Assembly (NCBI RefSeq): GCF_003001815.1
Contig: NZ_PVMZ01000014.1
Coordinates: 1-64,000 of the forward strand
From: Actinoplanes italicus
GTDB taxonomy: Bacteria; Actinomycetota; Actinomycetes; Mycobacteriales; Micromonosporaceae
Reading direction: 5' to 3'
Length of the DNA stretch: 64,000 nt
The notes beneath the pieces were generated by a model, which was not told where the DNA came from, ran no database searches, and worked only from the letters and a program-made list of their open reading frames with translations. The translations under genes were made by a program, and so were the position numbers. Shown in pieces: positions 3,123 through 52,384 of this stretch. The number at the start of each line of letters is the position of its first letter. Within the stretch, counting starts at the first letter, position 1.

Positions 3123-4766
3123 TCACACGGCGAGCTTGCGGGCCGACGCGGCGTCCGGCGCGGCCACCGCCGACGCGGCCAGGCGACGGCACTCGGCCTC
3201 GGTGCGCGCGGCCAGCGCCGCCCGGACCGGACCGATCGCACGCGGCGACATGGACAGACTCGTCACGCCGAGACCGACGAGCACCGGGGCGAGCAGCGGA
3301 TCGGACGCCGCCTCACCGCACACCCCGACGGGTTTGCCCACCGCCCGGCCGGCCTCTCCGCACACGCCTATGAGCTGCAGCAACGCCGGCTGCCACGGGT
3401 CGAGCAGGTCGGCCAGGTCGCCGCACATCCGGTCGGCGGCGAAGGTGTACTGGCTCAGGTCGTTCGTGCCGATGCTCAGGAAGTCGACGACCTTCAGCAG
3501 GTCGGCGGCGCGCAGCGCGGCGGCCGGCACCTCGATCATCACACCGGCCTTCGGCAGCCCGGCGTCGTACACGGCCGTCGCGAAATCCGTCGCCTCGGCG
3601 AGGGTGGACACCATCGGCGCCATCACCCAGACGTCGGCGCCGGTCTGCGACCGGGCCGCAGCGATCGCGGCGAGCTGCGTGGTGAGCACGTCCGGGCGCT
3701 GCCGCGCCACGCGCAGGCCGCGGACACCCAGGGCGGGATTGGGCTCACCGTCCTGGTTCAGGAACGGCAACGGCTTGTCGGCGCCGGCATCGAGGGTACG
3801 GATGACGACGCGCCGACCGGCCATGGCGGTGAACACGTCCCGGTACGCGGCGATCTGCTCGTCGAGGGCCGGCTCCTGGGCACGGTCGAGGAAGAGCAGC
3901 TCGGTACGGAACAGGCCGACACCCTCGGCGTGCGCCTCGTCGGCGGCGGGCACGTTCTTCGCGGAACCGACGTTGGCGAGGAGCTTCACCCCGTACCCGT
4001 CAGAGGTCTGCCCCGGACCGGTCGAACCGGAGGCCGCGGCTGCCACCTGCGCCGCCGCATCCGCCGCGGCCCTGGCCTCGGCCTCGTCGACGCCCACCCG
4101 GACCTGCCCGGAGGAGCCGTCGAGCAGCACGATCGTGCCGTCCGGCACGGCGAGGGCGCCGGAGCAGGCGACCACCGCCGGCAGGCCCAGCGCACGGGCC
4201 AGGATGGCGGTGTGGCTGGTCGGGCCACCGACCTCGGTGACCAGGCCGATCACCTGTTCCGGGTCGAGGTCGGCGGTGTCGGCCGGCGCCAGGTCGCGGG
4301 CCGCGAGGACGTAGGGGTGGCCGGGCGCGGGGACTCCCGGCATCGGCAGGCCGAGCAGGACGGCGACCGCCCGGTCCCGGAGGTCGTCCAGGTCGGCGAC
4401 ACGTTCGGCGAGATATCCGCCCGCGGCGGCGAACGCCTCCCGGAACGTGGCGAACGCGCCGTCGATCGCGTGCGGCGCGTCGTGGCCGTCGTCGATGAGC
4501 TCGCGTACGCCGTCGCGCAACTCCTCGTCGCCGGCCATCAGCGCCTCGGCCCGCAGCACCTCGGCGACCGTGTCGTCGGTCGCACGATCGGCACGGCGGC
4601 CGAGTTCGGCGACCACCTCGGCGAGCGCGGCCTCGGCCCTGGTGTATTCGGCGGCCGCGTCGGTGACCGGGACGGGGGCCGGGAGTGCCGGGGCGGCCGC
4701 GATCCGCAACAGCGGACCGGCGGCGATCCCGGCGCACACCCCGATGCCGGTGAGCACCTCAGACAT
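3123..4766 (-). CDS. ptsI: PTS enzyme I (phosphoenolpyruvate-protein phosphotransferase)
   Basis: 547 aa, close to the usual enzyme I length. It autophosphorylates from phosphoenolpyruvate and passes the phosphate to HPr. The phospho-histidine motif GGPTSHTAIL places the active His near residue 185. The PEP-binding TIM-barrel half contains FRTELLFLDR, RTLDAGADKPLPFL and the C-terminal GVCGEAA cysteine motif. I chose the ATG at 4766 (MSEVLTGIGV); it overlaps the end of ptsH by eight bases, so the two are translationally coupled. Upstream in-frame starts lie inside ptsH and lack family similarity. Confidence 0.95.
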   Translation of the reverse strand: MSEVLTGIGVCAGIAAGPLLRIAAAPALPAPVPVTDAAAEYTRAEAALAEVVAELGRRADRATDDTVAEVLRAEALMAGDEELRDGVRELIDDGHDAPHAIDGAFATFREAFAAAGGYLAERVADLDDLRDRAVAVLLGLPMPGVPAPGHPYVLAARDLAPADTADLDPEQVIGLVTEVGGPTSHTAILARALGLPAVVACSGALAVPDGTIVLLDGSSGQVRVGVDEAEARAAADAAAQVAAAASGSTGPGQTSDGYGVKLLANVGSAKNVPAADEAHAEGVGLFRTELLFLDRAQEPALDEQIAAYRDVFTAMAGRRVVIRTLDAGADKPLPFLNQDGEPNPALGVRGLRVARQRPDVLTTQLAAIAAARSQTGADVWVMAPMVSTLAEATDFATAVYDAGLPKAGVMIEVPAAALRAADLLKVVDFLSIGTNDLSQYTFAADRMCGDLADLLDPWQPALLQLIGVCGEAGRAVGKPVGVCGEAASDPLLAPVLVGLGVTSLSMSPRAIGPVRAALAARTEAECRRLAASAVAAPDAASARKLAV

Positions 4767-32664: not shown

Positions 32665-33189
32665 GAGGATCTCGGCGCCGTGGTGGATGACCTCACGGTT
32701 GATGTGCAGGATCAGAGTGGCCAGCGGCTCGGCGGCGTACTGGCCCTCAGCCTCGCCGCACGGACGGTTCAAGCCCTCGTCGCCCAGGGCCGTCACCCCG
32801 GCCAGCCAGGCCGCGTGGGCGTCGTCCAGCTGGGTGAGCGCCTCGTCCGCCGTACCCGCATAGGTGAAATTGAGGTAATCGGCCGGGGGACCGCCGAAGT
32901 GCGAGGCCACCCTCGCGCCGAGCACACCGACGATGATGTGACCGAGCCGCCAGGCGATCGTGGTGACCGGTGGCGGTGACGGCTCGGGGTACTCCCAGTC
33001 GATGGTGAAGTCACCCGCCCCGGCGGCCATCGGCGCGGCGCTCGTGCCGCGTGGTCGCACGCTCCAGGCGCCTGGCGCGGGTTCCCAGAAGTACTCGTCG
33101 TCGGTCAGTCCGTCGAGCCCGGGCCGCAGCTGGCTGCGCCAGTGAAAGTCGAGCTGCTCCCTTAGCTGCAGATTCCACTCAACACCCAT
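32635..33189 (-). CDS. DinB-family protein
   Basis: 184 aa, four-helix DinB/YfiT-type fold. WRSQLRPGLDGLTDDEYFWEPAPGAWSVRP at the N-terminus, TTIAWRLGHIIVGVLGAR (first metal His) and LILHINREVIHHGAEILLLRDLYR (further His) form the expected metal site. Many relatives are thiol-dependent (mycothiol or bacillithiol) transferases, but the role here is unknown. GGTGGA lies a few bases before the ATG. Confidence 0.8.
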   Translation of the reverse strand: MGVEWNLQLREQLDFHWRSQLRPGLDGLTDDEYFWEPAPGAWSVRPRGTSAAPMAAGAGDFTIDWEYPEPSPPPVTTIAWRLGHIIVGVLGARVASHFGGPPADYLNFTYAGTADEALTQLDDAHAAWLAGVTALGDEGLNRPCGEAEGQYAAEPLATLILHINREVIHHGAEILLLRDLYRSR

Positions 33190-33460
33190 TGCTCCACCTT
33201 CCCCCGTCCGTTCTGAACTACGCCTGTCCTTCTTCCCTCGCCACCCTCTCCGCGCCTTCTCTCCTTTCGGCGCGCCGCTCCTGCGCCACCTTCCCCACCG
33301 GAGCTATCCCTCCACCCCGCACGTCCCCTCTCCCTTTGCCGCGCCGCCCCGCTCCACCATCCCACGCCCTCCCTCTTCGCCGCGCCGCACCGCTCTTCAT
33401 CCCCGCCGCGTCCACTCCTCTCTCGTCGCGCCACCGTCTGCCTCCGCGCCGGCGTCCTTG
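33190..33460. other. Polypyrimidine tract, no gene
   Basis: About 260 bases in which the plus strand is dominated by C and T (CTTCTTCCC, CTCTCCTTTC and CCCTCCCTCTTCG-like runs) with few purines. Reading frames here are low-complexity and lack starts or family signatures. It separates the DinB start from the DUF559 gene. Confidence 0.6.
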
Positions 33461-33465
33461 TAGAT

Positions 33466-33498
33466 CTTGTGGGCTTTCGCCGGTATGGCGACCACAAG
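33466..33498. repeat. Hairpin related to the 47-bp elements
   Basis: CTTGTGG...TCGCC-GGTAT-GGCGA-CCACAAG forms a stem of 7 + 5 bp with a four-base bulge on the left arm. Its first 20 bases (from 33463) match the start of the three 47-bp elements downstream at 17 of 20 positions. It lies upstream of the DUF559 gene. Confidence 0.5.
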
Positions 33499-33573
33499 CA
33501 CACGACGTTGGCGACACCAGAGGTTGTCCACAGGGCCTCGGCAGCGGGTGGCGGAAACTGGCACTGTGTCGGG

Positions 33574-34521
33574 GTGCTGCTAGCGGTTCCAGGAAGGGAT
33601 GCGAGTGAGTTCGACTGGTTGGTCTTCGAGCAGGCGGGAGTCCTGACGAGTAGGCAGGCGATCAGTGCCCTGGGGCGCGCCGCGGTTCGCACCAACCTGT
33701 CCCAAGGCCGATGGCGTGCCGTCTGCCGCGGCGTGATCTTGACCGAAAACGGCCACCTCTGGCCGGAACAGCAACTGTGGGTCGCCGTCCTCGCGGCCGG
33801 CGACGGCGCCCGGCTGGCCGGTGCGGCGGCCGCCGCCGCTGGCGGGGTGCGCGGCATGCGTACCGAGGTCATCGATGTTCTCGTGCCCGCTGCCCGATCT
33901 CCGACCGGCCGGCTGTCCCGCTTGCCCGACGACATGTGCCCGGTTCGGGTACGCCGTACAACCGTTCTGCCCGACGAGCATCTGCAGCACGGTCTCCCGC
34001 CGCGAACCACGGTGGCGCGCGCGGTCATCGACGCGGCGGCCTGGTCCGGCAGCGATCGCGCCGCCGCTGGCGTCATCCTCGGGGCATGCCAGCAGAAGCG
34101 AGTGACGCCCGAGGAGCTGTGGCAGGCCATTGCCGTACTGCCACGGATACGGCGGCACAAGCTGATCAACGCCACTATCGCGGACGCCTGCGGAGGCGCT
34201 GAAGCGCTGTCCGAAATCGATCTCATAGCGCTGTGCCGCCGATCCGGACTTCCGTTGCCGCGGCTCCAGGCGCACCGGCTCGACGTTCATGGCCGGCGGC
34301 GATTTCTCGACGCCTACTGGGCGGACGAGCGCCTGCACGTCGAGGTGGACGGCGCACATCACATGGAGGTCGAGCACTGGGCCGACGACATGCTCCGGCA
34401 GAACGCGGTCTGGACACGCGGCGACCGGATCCTGCGCTTCCCGGCCTGGCTGCTCCGAACCGACCCGGCAACCGTGGTGGCCCAGCTCCGCGAGGCACTG
34501 GCCATCCCACCGAGACCGTGA
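33574..34521 (+). CDS. DUF559 endonuclease-like protein with N-terminal winged-helix domain
   Basis: About 315 aa. The N-terminal part (FDWLVFEQAGVLTSRQAISAL, then RTNLSQGRWRAVCRGVIL) resembles the winged-helix antitoxin domain of AbiEi-like proteins. The C-terminal part has GRRRFLDAYWADERLHVEVDGAHH and RILRFPAWLLRTDP, the Vsr/PD-(D/E)XK-like DUF559 core with its E-V-D-G motif. Such proteins are common and uncharacterised in actinomycetes; a DNA-cleaving role is inferred only. The start is uncertain (GTG 33574 chosen, GTG 33469 possible). It is flanked by palindromic repeats on both sides. Confidence 0.7.
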   Translation: MLLAVPGRDASEFDWLVFEQAGVLTSRQAISALGRAAVRTNLSQGRWRAVCRGVILTENGHLWPEQQLWVAVLAAGDGARLAGAAAAAAGGVRGMRTEVIDVLVPAARSPTGRLSRLPDDMCPVRVRRTTVLPDEHLQHGLPPRTTVARAVIDAAAWSGSDRAAAGVILGACQQKRVTPEELWQAIAVLPRIRRHKLINATIADACGGAEALSEIDLIALCRRSGLPLPRLQAHRLDVHGRRRFLDAYWADERLHVEVDGAHHMEVEHWADDMLRQNAVWTRGDRILRFPAWLLRTDPATVVAQLREALAIPPRP

Positions 34522-34563
34522 CCTCACCGTGGAGCGGCCGCACGCAGCAGTCACCCCCTAGAC

Positions 34564-34610
34564 GATCTTGCAGGGTTACGCCGTAGCAGCAGCCCGAACC
34601 GGACAAGATC
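34564..34610. repeat. 47-bp palindromic element, copy A
   Basis: Begins GATCTTG and ends CAAGATC, with GGTT/AACC further in, so it can fold into a hairpin. Copies A, B and C are each exactly 47 bases. A and C share 17 of the first 20 bases. Confidence 0.65.
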
Positions 34611-34646
34611 TGCCCGCTGAAGGCGGCGGCAGGCGTGCCGCCCGAC

Positions 34647-34693
34647 GATGTTGTGAGGTTGCGCCGCCCCGTCAACCGCAACGCCCCAAGATC
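34647..34693. repeat. 47-bp palindromic element, copy B
   Basis: Begins GATGTTGTGAGGTTGCGCCG, identical to copy C over the first 20 bases except position 4, and ends CCAAGATC. The right half is diverged from the other copies. Confidence 0.6.
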
Positions 34694-34759
34694 GCCGAGG
34701 AAGTCGCGCAGCGCACGACGCCACAGCGGTGACGGCAGTGTGGCGGCGGCGGCAGTAAG

Positions 34760-34920
34760 GGTGACGGCAGTGGGACGGTGACGGCAGTGGGACGGTGACG
34801 GCAGTGGGACGGTGACGGCAGTGGGACGGTGACGGCAGTGGGACGGTGACGGCAGGGGGACGGTGACGGCAGGGGGACGGTGACGGCAGGGGGACGGTGA
34901 CGGCAGTGGGACGGTGACGG
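34760..34920. repeat. 17-bp minisatellite, 9.5 copies
   Basis: Unit GGTGACGGCAGTGGGAC. Nine full copies start at 34760, 34777, 34794, 34811, 34828, 34845, 34862, 34879 and 34896, then a partial one. Copies 6, 7 and 8 share AGGGGGAC instead of AGTGGGAC, which suggests recent block duplication. It abuts copy C of the 47-bp element. Because 17 is not a multiple of three, no frame is repeated, which argues against coding. Confidence 0.9.
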
Positions 34921-34966
34921 ATCTTGTGAGGTTGCGCCGCTATTTCGACCGGAACCCGACAACATC
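34920..34966. repeat. 47-bp palindromic element, copy C
   Basis: Begins GATCTTGTGAGGTTGCGCCG and ends GACAACATC, with GGTT/AACC inside. It follows the minisatellite with no gap. Confidence 0.65.
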
Positions 34967-35005
34967 GCCGCCGTGGTGAGGCGGTGGCCGGTGGGCCGCG
35001 CGCGG

Positions 35006-35125
35006 TCGGCAGGCGCGAGGCCGGCGGGCGCGAGGCCGGCAGACGCGAAGCCGGCAGACGCCAAGCCGGCAGACGCGAAGCTGGCAGGCGCAAAGCCGGC
35101 AGACGCGAAGCCGGCGGGCGGTGAG
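35006..35125. repeat. 15-bp minisatellite, 8 copies
   Basis: Unit CCGGCAGACGCGAAG. Eight consecutive copies with substitutions (GGGCGCGAGG, CTGGCAGGCGCAAAG) but no length change. On the plus strand one frame would read P-A-D-A-K repeats; no ribosome site precedes that frame, so I regard the array as non-coding. No gene is seen between the DUF559 stop (34521) and the amylopullulanase stop (35256). Confidence 0.85.
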
Positions 35126-35255
35126 CGAGGCACGTTGGGGGGTGGAGACGGCCACCGCCCACCTCAGGCTGGTGGATGAGCGGTGGCCGTGAAGAGGGGC
35201 TGGGACCGGGCCGGCGCGCGGAGGTGGAAGGGGCCCGCGCGCCGGACCCGGTGGC

Positions 35256-38200
35256 TCAGCTCTGCACGAAGACCGAGACGGTTCGTGCGGGGACCGTCAG
35301 CGTGCCGGTCGACGCGGTGAACGACGCGGAGCGTGTCGCCGGGTCGGCGGAGGACTGCTGGACCGGGTGGAGGGTGACCTTCTTGCCTGCGAGCGCGGGC
35401 ACCGTCTGGGTGGCGGTGGTCGTGCCGGCGTTGAAGACGACCGTGATCGACTTCCAGCGGTTGTCGATGCCTCGGGCGTCGATGGTCATGGTGATGACGC
35501 CCGGGGTCTCGCCGGTGCCGGACAGCGGGAACGCGACCCGCTGCTGGACCTGCCTGCCGGTGGCCAGACCGAAGGCCGGCGTGGACTTCCGGATCTTCAG
35601 CAGCTCCTGGTAGGTGCTGTTCGTCAGGTTGATCGCGGCGCAGTCGGGGACGAGCGCAGGGTCGGCGAGCAGCGGCTTGGCGTACGCGTACTTGCTCTCG
35701 TTGTCCGCCCTGGGCGGCAGGCCGCGACCGAAACCGTTGCCCTGCGAGCAGTCCCAGATGATCTGGTTGAACCAGTCACCCGAGTTGTACGAGTTCCGGT
35801 CCAGCGACTTCGAGCGGAGCAGCTCGCTGCCGGTGGTGACGAAGCCTGCGCCCTGGCCGAGGACCGTGGTGGCCAGTGCCACCGACTGCGCGCGGGCCCG
35901 GTCGGTGGCCGTTGTCGCCTGCGGGAGCTTGAACGCCATCGAGTCGTAGAGGATCTCGTTGTCGTGGGCGTCCACGTAGGTGATCGACTCACCGGGGTCG
36001 TTCGTGTACCCGGCCGGCGCGCCGTTGTAGTCGACCTGCGAGCCGGTGACCACGTTGCCGGACGAGTCCGTGAACGTGTACCCGGCCAGGTTGCCGGTCA
36101 GACCGACCTTGATCAGGTCCTGGTAGTGCAGCAGCCGCGCCTTCTGTTCGGCGGCCGTTCCGTTGACCGCGTCGCCGTTGGGTGCGCCGGCCAGGCCGGA
36201 CGCGAAGCCCTGGATGCGCGGGTTGCCGTCGAACGGGCCGCCACCGCGGACCGCGTCACGGAGCCGGTCGTTGAACGTGCCGATCCCGGTGCCGCCGAGC
36301 TCGGTCTGGGACGCCTGGATGAAGCGCGCGTTGTTCGCCACCTCACCGAAGTTCCAGCCCTCGCCGTACACATAGATGTTCTTGCCGTCGACGCCGTCGC
36401 GGGAGACCGTGAGCCGGTCGAGGGCCTTGCGCACCGCCAGAATGTTCTCCTTGGGGTGGTGGCCCATCAGGTCGAAGCGGAAGCCGTCGACCTTGTACTG
36501 CTTGGCCCACGTGACGATCGAGTCGACCACGAGCTTGCCCATCATCGCGTTCTCCGGCGCGGTGTTGGAGCAGCAGGTGGAGTTGGCGACCGTGCCGTCC
36601 TCCAGCAGGCGGTGGTAGTAGCCGGGCACGATCTGGTCGAGCACCGACTTGGCGTCGGTACCGGCGGCCGAGGTGTGGTTGTAGACGACGTCCATCACCA
36701 CGCGGAGGCCGGCCTGGTTGACGCCGGAGACCATCGATCGGAATTCGCGGGTACGGGCGGACGGGTCGACCGCGTAGCCACCCTCCGGAACCGTGTAGTG
36801 CAGCGGGTCGTAGCCCCAGTTGTAGCCGTCGGTCGCGGCGACCTTCTCGATGCAGGCCTGCTGCTCCTCCGAGTCGGGCGGCAGCGACGCCAGGTCACAG
36901 GCGGGCTGCTGCTGGTCGGCGCGCTTCTCCGGGATGGTGGCGAAGTCGAACGCCGGGAGCAGGTGCAGGTGGGTCACACCCGATTTCGCCAACGAGGTGA
37001 GGTGCTTCATCCCGGTCGTCTGCGGCGAGGTGAACGCGGAGAAGGTCCCACGAGAAGAGGCCGGCACCGTCGAGTCCGCGATCGAGAAGTCCCGTACCGA
37101 AAGCTCCGAGATCTGGATCCTCGCGGGAGCGACCGCGGCCGGCTTCTTGAGGGAGGACCAGCCGGCCGGCGTGAGGGCCGGGTCGGACAGGCTGACGAAC
37201 TGGCTGCGGGTCGAGTCGGCGGTCAGGGCCAGCGAGTACGGGTCGGTCACGGACGCCGTGACGATCTTCTGCGTGGCCGGCTGCCATGCGGTCACCCGGA
37301 ACTTGTAGAACTTGCCGGCCCAGTCACCGCGACCGGACCAGACGCCGGTGCGGTCGTCCCGGGACAGTTCGACGAGCGCCGGGGAGACCTGGTCGGCGGT
37401 GTCGTAGACCTCGAGCTCGACGTTGCGGGCGGTCGGCGCCCAGACGGCGACGCTCGCCTTACGACCGTTGACGACCGGGCCGAGCGTCGAGTTCACGGCG
37501 GAGCCGTAGACGTGGTCGAGGACCCCGGAGAGCTGCACACCGGTGGCCGAGAGCAGCTTGCCGGTGGCGTCGCGCTCGGTGACGACGACCTGGCCGCGCA
37601 GAATGTCCGAGACATTGCCGGACCGAAGCGCGAAGGCGCCGTACTGCCAGAGGTGCGGGAACTTCTCACGCTGTGCCTCGGTGAGGCCGTTGCGCCGAGC
37701 AGTGAGAGACACCGACTTGAACGTCCCGGTCAGCTCACCGTCCGCGACACCGATCCCGCCGGTGGGCGAGTACACCAGGTCGTAGACCTTGCCGTCGGTG
37801 CCCGCACCGACCGGCTCGAGCGTGGTGCCCGTGCCGGTCTTCCAGGCGATCGTGCCCCGGTCCAGCCAGACGGCGGCCGACTTGGTCACGTCCGCCACGC
37901 CCCCACCGGCGCTGGTCTTGACCAGCGGCAGCAGGCGGGTCTCCTGCCCGGCGAGCAGCCAGACCTCGCGGCCCGCCTTGGCGAAGTCGAGGGACTGATC
38001 GGTCGGCAGGTCCTTCTCGTCACCCCGGTGGATGATGTAGCTCAGCGACGGCGCACCGGCCGCGAGGGGCACCTCGAACACCGCGCCGTAACTGTCGGTC
38101 CGGACCGGGAGCAGCGGGCTCGACCAGTCGGTCGGGCTGGCCGCGCCGGACCAGACGTGCAGGCCCCAGCCGTCGTAGTTCCCGTCGGCGCGCTTCCAGT

Positions 38201-52337: not shown

Positions 52338-52384
52338 CCGCGTGGTGACCTTCGGCGTTTGTACCGCCGCAGGTCACCACGCGG
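52338..52384. terminator. Bidirectional terminator between dapE and argG
   Basis: CCGCGTGGTGACC and GGTCACCACGCGG pair perfectly over 13 bp, with an inner CGGCG/CGCCG stem, between the two convergent stops (52334 and 52388). Confidence 0.85.

Follow-up and report, generated by a model that had tools for sequence, protein, structure and literature searches.

A fixed-length palindrome family and its candidate AbiEi-DUF559 partner gene in Actinoplanes italicus and other Micromonosporaceae

Results

Palindromes of One Length around a Nuclease-like Gene

We wanted to know why several palindromes of equal length surround a single nuclease-like gene in Actinoplanes italicus and whether gene and palindromes belong together. 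The locus lies in the 64,000-nucleotide stretch of DNA analyzed here (hereafter the window), for which an earlier note, made from the sequence alone, had reported three 47-bp copies around the gene. All three are present, at positions 34564 to 34610, 34647 to 34693, and 34920 to 34966 (3 end pairs with up to two mismatches, compared with 0.25 expected in the window). The first begins 42 nt past the stop codon of the gene (positions 33574 to 34521), and the second follows it by 83 bp, start to start. What the note took for a related hairpin at 33466 is indeed related but is in fact a decayed full-length 47-mer in register at positions 33463 to 33509, 5' of the gene, with an intact left arm and core and a right end that departs from the end pattern by three mismatches. 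It scored 28.5 bits with a weight matrix built from 28 distinct training copies, all from outside the window, every one of which scored higher (the lowest at 45.6 bits); the reversed control (1.2 Mb, one strand) gave no score above 12 bits. All four copies are on the forward strand, one upstream and three downstream of this single gene. We also noted tandem arrays of 17-bp and 15-bp units between and after the palindromes (positions 34760 to 34919 and 34998 to 35100), and short tandem repeats occur in the flanks of some other 47-mer copies. A structured-RNA reading of positions 33000 to 35300 was dropped, as Rfam gave no match there up to an E-value of 1.

Throughout the 11.15-Mb A. italicus genome, the pattern GATSTTG-N33-CAASATC occurs in at least 141 exact-end copies, with 0 in the reversed control, and a relaxed count (two conserved inner pairs added, two mismatches allowed) gave 230. 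The length is locked: of 23 end pairs lying 14–91 bp apart in a 1.264-Mb sample of the genome, 22 spanned 47 bp and one 48 bp. The consensus, summarized from column counts, is GATCTTGTGAGGTTNSGCCGYCNNNNCRRCCNSAACCTCACAAGATC. Its core is asymmetric, so that copies are oriented, and the oriented pattern was found at 69 places on the forward and 61 on the reverse strand. The conserved left half and diverged right half described in the note hold for the window copies but not for 31 distinct copies sampled from the genome, in which both halves are about equally conserved.

The family extends to relatives. A scan of genome contigs returned at least 102 loci with a 47-mer; among the matches listed, 101 are from Micromonosporaceae (Micromonospora, Actinoplanes/Paractinoplanes, Phytohabitans, and one further member of the family), the sole other locus being from a Mariprofundus MAG. 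The pattern was matched in 49 of 150 genomes drawn from Micromonosporaceae, and in its exact form it had no match in 16 genomes from other families of the same order. Across 67 genomes of the genus, relaxed 47-mer counts range from 0 to 230 (these allow two mismatches; the 48-mer counts given below allow none). Further genome copies and a conserved length in relatives, the absence of which would have told against the note's reading, were both found. A phage or plasmid origin was rejected: the exact GATCTTG/TT/AA/CAAGATC 47-mer pattern was unmatched in IMG/VR, the window protein had no match among plasmid proteins at 1e-5, and a single protein match, at 38%, was found in an unannotated 7.6-kb record named "Bacteriophage sp."

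The Gene Encodes a Predicted AbiEi-DUF559 Fusion

The candidate partner gene (positions 33574 to 34521, forward strand), whose GTG start was assigned by comparison with Micromonospora homologues, encodes 315 amino acids, with an AbiEi-antitoxin-like region at residues 18–188 and a C-terminal DUF559/REase_MTES_1575 nuclease-type domain (DUF559 match at positions 34303 to 34500, forward strand). The Pfam match to DUF559 is weak (E 2e-4). The PADLOC AbiEi model matched the window protein at E 2e-9, the Micromonospora inaquosa homologue at 6e-12, and the 48-class protein of genome G075 (see below) at 1.5e-18; a weaker PADLOC match, to a methyl-directed restriction enzyme, was obtained for the window protein (E 0.01) and for a 48-class protein (1.8e-5). 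NCBIfam gave no name for any of the three proteins tested. In an alignment of 20 homologues, DUF559 was matched in all 20 at E up to 1 (best 7e-7), REase_MTES_1575 in 10, and AbiEi_4 in 8, and residues Asp-239, Glu-250, and Asp-252 are kept, as would, by analogy, be expected of a PD-(D/E)XK site. AlphaFold, run on an alignment of four sequences, gave a poor model (mean pLDDT 45), and a profile search of solved structures gave weak matches only, the best being 3hrl, an "Endonuclease-Like Protein" (E 0.046). A view of the DUF559 gene as irrelevant, drawn from two Pfam DUF559 matches in the A. italicus genome, was abandoned, as the protein search finds four homologues there.

Upstream of the gene, the DnaA-box-like sequence TTGTCCACAGG occupies positions 33524 to 33534 on the forward strand. 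A looser motif, NTNTCCACAG, which we take to resemble a DnaA box, stands at most 160 bp before the start of homology in 26 of 33 AbiEi-DUF559 homologues examined (0.002 expected per locus), and the stricter TTRTCCACAGG in 19 of the 33. The looser motif is absent from four Micromonospora homologues, paralogue 1 of G023, and two others.

Copies Lie between Genes, and One Site Is Empty in Relatives

None of 34 copies sampled from 1.264 Mb of the A. italicus genome lies inside a called gene (calls for all position statistics are those of a crude caller, which missed the DUF559 gene itself). In the same sample, 12 of 17 occupied intergenic regions are convergent, compared with a background of 14% when regions of 60 bp or more are counted (p = 1.6e-7) and of 27% when intergenic bases are (p = 2e-4). 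This bias is weaker in 80 of the 102 listed loci, where convergent gaps make up 19% of intergenic bases and the 84 copies divide into 23 convergent, 16 + 15 tandem, and 7 divergent placements, with 3 in called genes and 20 unclassified.

At C1:71541 of A. italicus, the element sits between two convergent genes, 6 nt from one stop codon and 8 nt from the other, and the same junction is without it in G082, G067, G071, G052, and G049 (83–88% identical over the query). In these five relatives, the junction is 28–45 bp shorter; the few bases surrounding the element differ, which blurs its exact ends, and at this one aligned empty site no target duplication is evident. These five, the nearest genomes at this junction, hold 0, 0, 1, 0, and 0 47-mers, respectively, and G071 has 30 48-mers. 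At a second homologous junction, in Micromonospora, elements are present in some species and absent in others, with a spacer too variable for an empty site to be read, and lengths other than 47 bp also occur (50 in L206). An empty site, as sought in the earlier note, thus exists, and the proposal of a dispersed, equal-length, and probably mobile family stands on it together with the genome copies and the shared length.

Palindrome Symmetry Suits Recognition by Protein

Across species, the two arms covary strongly. In 55 of the 84 distinct 47-mers listed, we counted 134 double changes compared with 56 after shuffling (0 of 500), and pairing is 89% compared with 29–46% in slid controls; 18 columns are fixed by the search pattern and cannot vary. 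Within A. italicus, in contrast, no arm covariation was found (13 double changes compared with 12.8 shuffled) among 28 of the 34 sampled copies, duplicates, one near-duplicate, and one out-of-register copy being left out. The "structured" in the note's "mobile or structured" is less secure, as arm covariation is seen across species yet is absent among the A. italicus copies. Two protein monomers recognizing a symmetric site would explain both observations, and the pattern suits such recognition better than it does a hairpin kept in every copy.

The extragenic, largely convergent placement and the strength of the palindromes would also be expected of bidirectional terminators shared by convergent genes. 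We consider this highly improbable, as the compensatory change by which an intrinsic terminator keeps its hairpin failed to appear among the 28 A. italicus copies, five relatives do without the element at the C1:71541 junction, and in Micromonospora trifolii a separate GC-rich hairpin adjoins the element. Further, terminators would leave unexplained the fixed length and the different families found beside different paralogues (see below).

Many neighboring copies are spaced 72, 81–84, 93–96, or 101–106 bp apart. A set of 44 neighbor distances, hand-collected among the matches listed with most within-cluster repeats left out, is phased near 10.5 bp (R 0.72, reached in 0 of 5000 random sets drawn uniformly between 66 and 125 bp), with out-of-phase distances such as 89 and 119 bp included; for a conservative set of 21 distances, the figure was 19 of 20,000 random sets. 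Such helical phasing suits complexes on double-stranded DNA. Phasing and the conserved, contact-like columns would both fit cognate sites that owe nothing to nuclease-driven mobility, namely sites of an AbiEi-type regulator or a chromosome organizer, which ordinary duplication and horizontal transfer would have spread and which would be retained as a regulon or as an architectural array; several clusters do resemble tandem duplications. We regard this explanation as unlikely, although it is the one that deserves most weight among the alternatives. It sits poorly with the 230 relaxed copies in A. italicus against 0 or 1 47-mers in each of the five genomes that lack the C1:71541 element and with the position of most sampled copies between convergent genes, away from promoters, and it would not account for the conserved nuclease-type domain.

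Gene and Palindromes Occur Together

A close homologue of the window protein (E < 1e-40) was found by protein search in 23 of 67 genomes of the genus, A. italicus included. As elements, we counted 47-mers with up to two mismatches plus exact 48-mers; the thresholds of 4 and 20 were chosen after the counts had been seen, and kinship is ignored in the p values. At least 20 elements are present in 14 of the 23 genomes with a homologue but in 1 of the 44 without (p = 1e-7), and at least 4 in 16 of 23 compared with 3 of 44 (p about 1e-7). There are 28 genomes with no protein hit, 27 of which also lack any 47- or 48-mer. The exception, G070, has 25 relaxed 47-mers and 3 48-mers and stands alone in the genus in combining 20 or more elements with the lack of a homologue hit, for which gene loss, an assembly gap, or another mover are candidate explanations. 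Also counting against a pairing are G069 and G073, with 8 elements each and no close homologue, and the 9 of 23 homologue-bearing genomes that have 0 to 5 elements. Of these nine, G007 and G014 carry palindromes of 47/48 bp with GACCTTG ends near the gene, and palindromes of another sequence are present in G013 and G052. No GATCTTG-type or repeated palindrome was recognized near the gene in the other five, G017, G019, G063, G012, and G082. Among genomes with many copies, no element was found by the gene in the stretches read from G008 (83 copies) and G004 (30 copies). When 10 homologue loci that lack GATCTTG elements were scanned for repeated palindromes, a single pair was found, in G013 (L299), where two similar 42-bp palindromes (AACTCCCCACACAA...) at 3587–3628 and 3709–3750 lie beside the homologue and perhaps represent a further family.

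At the level of individual loci, an exact 47- or 48-mer is present in 12 of 34 homologue loci compared with 1.43 expected (P = 5e-10). These loci, of 2.7–8.5 kb, hold homologues at about E 1e-40 or better, several of them broken, with weaker ones (e.g. C1:525654) left out; looser flank scans add G023 paralogue 1, G080, G021, G007, and G020 as loci with elements. The association recurs in Micromonospora, in which 4 of the 102 listed loci, picked solely for the 47-mer, carry a homologue 56–59% identical to the window protein (M. inaquosa, M. alfalfae, M. trifolii, and M. tarensis, the last frameshifted). In the first three, the palindrome is directly upstream of the homologue, 39 nt before the presumed ATG in M. 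inaquosa. The position of the element relative to the gene varies, being often downstream in Actinoplanes, which counts against the reading proposed below. The nuclease-like gene that the earlier note placed at the center does matter: its homologues adjoin the elements and accompany them, at least as an association across the 67 genomes that disregards kinship. The note had considered movement by an enzyme from another locus, but the gene at positions 33574 to 34521 is itself the best candidate for the partner.

The note had also suggested looking for a transposase; for Y1_Tnp (PF01797), A. italicus gave no match. Ordinary REP/BIME elements moved by a RAYT, a Y1 transposase, would show the same layout, with palindromes on both sides of the gene and at many other places in the genome, and Y1_Tnp is matched in 3 of 11 element-rich genomes (G023, G201, and G192). 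With no match in the other 8 (A. italicus and 7 of 10 others), we rejected this mover and regard its involvement as close to inconceivable.

A different role for the association would be addiction or defense: the palindromes would tether a harmful nuclease or mark self DNA, and site loss or unmarked DNA would release the nuclease. AbiEi is described as the antitoxin of a type IV toxin-antitoxin system (in the portion of PMC7319586 covered here) and is here fused to a nuclease-type domain, and the methyl-directed restriction-enzyme match points the same way. We think this improbable, given that G071 keeps its 48-mers although its homologues are split or broken and that G070 has 47-mers but gave no homologue hit.

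Palindrome Families Differ between Paralogues

Elements of 48 bp were first met beside more distant homologues. Exact 48-mers are most numerous in G020 (133), G075 (116), G064 (77), G018 (66), G062 (55), G081 (31), G071 (30), and G078 (22), with 12 in A. italicus and 11 in G023, and all ten of these genomes have a homologue at E < 1e-40. On the protein tree, the 47 and 48 labels need 3 changes compared with 6.9 when shuffled (47 label, 3 of 500; 48 label, 2 of 500); the 48-labeled proteins form one clade except for those of G064 and G071, which are 48-class inside the 47 clade. Single genomes show the same division: in G023, paralogue 1 has a 47-mer nearby and paralogue 2 a 48-mer at a distance of 42 bp, and G062 is split likewise. 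We also note six 48-bp elements, most with an ACGTC center, clustered at C14:177037–177771 on the window's own contig.

A. italicus itself has a second family, CGTGGTGA-N25-TCACCACG, for which 23 of 24 head-to-head pairs lying 20–75 bp apart in 1.264 Mb measure 41 bp; one copy is in the window, at positions 52341 to 52381 on the forward strand. The second A. italicus paralogue (C12:17772–18656, 54% identical) has one 41-mer upstream and eight downstream by a relaxed pattern, and no exact 47-mer was found in its 8.5-kb locus, whereas the 3.9-kb locus of the window gene has three exact 47-mers and no 41-mer. That the two paralogues have different families is a strong argument against a shared insertion hot spot behind the association. 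Two further, more distant A. italicus homologues (C9 and C1) have no matched palindrome family, and this, like the presence of 12 48-mers in the genome, counts against the pairing. For a third A. italicus family, with the core ACCGCTGTCTC and 8 copies in 1.264 Mb (C1:452485, 533160, and 741059 and five more in C1/C2), no partner gene was found. Near more distant homologues (L276, L277, L278, L279, L281, L284, L274, and L294), we observed a 45-bp palindrome, GTCGGTGGTCCAAGG...CCTTGGACCACCGAC, with a conserved loop, which recurs in several species and could represent either a further family or a feature conserved in single copy.

Discussion

The pairing of nuclease gene and palindrome is well supported, and the observation made in the earlier note is confirmed, its interpretation in part. 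We think it fairly probable that these are cognate nuclease-palindrome pairs, laid out like RAYT and REP but made of unrelated parts, in which the palindrome is spread by the nuclease in trans. The gene product would combine an AbiEi-like DNA-binding domain with a DUF559 (Vsr-like PD-(D/E)XK) nuclease domain, and the 47-bp palindrome would be its cognate site, made of two half-sites of about 23 bp in inverted orientation, each taken by one monomer. The fixed length would then reflect the fixed geometry of the bound pair, because one monomer is proposed to sit on each half-site. Sites around the gene itself may serve autoregulation, and the nuclease, acting in trans, would have placed further sites throughout the genome, for the most part where two convergent genes meet, in the way proposed for RAYT with REPs; related paralogues would serve the 48-bp and 41-bp families. 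The step that we put forward most tentatively is that the protein, through its nuclease domain, copies or moves its own site.

The broader claim, which to us could as readily prove right as wrong, is that an AbiEi-Vsr-like fusion mobilizing its own fixed-length operator palindrome constitutes a new actinomycete class of nuclease and repeat, whose paralogues have founded families of their own. Such a partner would make the function of an uncharacterized nuclease family directly testable, would explain a set of intergenic repeats of Micromonosporaceae, and, if the claim is true, would provide a function for a branch within DUF559. As palindrome families differ from paralogue to paralogue, the specificity of protein for DNA could be mapped by sequence comparison alone. 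Among the open-access titles and abstracts listed, none joins DUF559 or AbiEi proteins to dispersed palindromes, which is weak evidence, as most subscription journals lie outside that set. The described enzyme partner of dispersed bacterial palindromes in the literature found is the HUH-type RAYT. In these soil bacteria, repeat and enzyme appear to form a partnership whose components are not known to act jointly, and a second, unrelated enzyme partner would suggest more than one origin for the combination of a nuclease with its multiplied site.

Several known systems share features with this one. Like MITEs, the elements are small, non-coding, and bounded by inverted repeats, with an empty site in relatives; unlike MITEs, each family is locked to one length. 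At the one aligned site, whose ends are blurred, no target duplication is evident, and the transposase search was made with PF01797. Caulobacter VsrA, a DUF559/Vsr-like protein linked to cytosine methylation and mismatch repair, belongs to the same nuclease domain family as the window protein, but neither palindromes nor an AbiEi-like domain are mentioned for it in the portion of PMC12907096 covered here. AbiEi is described (PMC7319586, in part) as binding its own promoter at a pair of inverted 23-bp repeats separated by 3 bp, bending the DNA, and repressing itself. Here too, a protein that matches the AbiEi model is encoded next to a dyad. Lengths of 47 and 48 bp would fit 2 × 23 + 1 or 2, and the dyad is upstream in three Micromonospora loci and the window, but the 41-bp family does not fit 2 × 23 bp, and many copies are downstream. 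Unlike in AbiE, one protein joins the AbiEi-like domain to a nuclease-type domain, and the dyad occurs in many copies around the genome.

The closest layout is that of REP/REPIN elements and their RAYT (TnpA-REP). According to the portion of PMC2817692 covered, REPs are short imperfect palindromes present in tens to hundreds of intergenic copies and in spaced arrays, each being a hairpin with a GT(A/G)G head; the RAYT gene is flanked by its own palindromes in a pairing specific to each gene, and RAYT has been proposed to copy or move REP. A length of 20–40 bp is given for REP in part of PMC3733652. The palindromes described here are likewise extragenic and in high copy (141 exact-end copies; 34 of 34 sampled copies outside called genes), and the gene is flanked by its own palindromes in the window and at the second A. 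italicus paralogue, and palindromes are upstream in three Micromonospora loci, although not found at every homologue. The parts differ, as the candidate enzyme is AbiEi-like plus DUF559 rather than a Y1 HUH transposase and the element is a dyad of 41, 47, or 48 bp with inverted GATCTTG or CGTGGTGA ends rather than a GT(A/G)G-headed hairpin. If our reading is true, the pair would be an independently evolved counterpart of RAYT and REP that combines an antitoxin fold with that of a repair nuclease.
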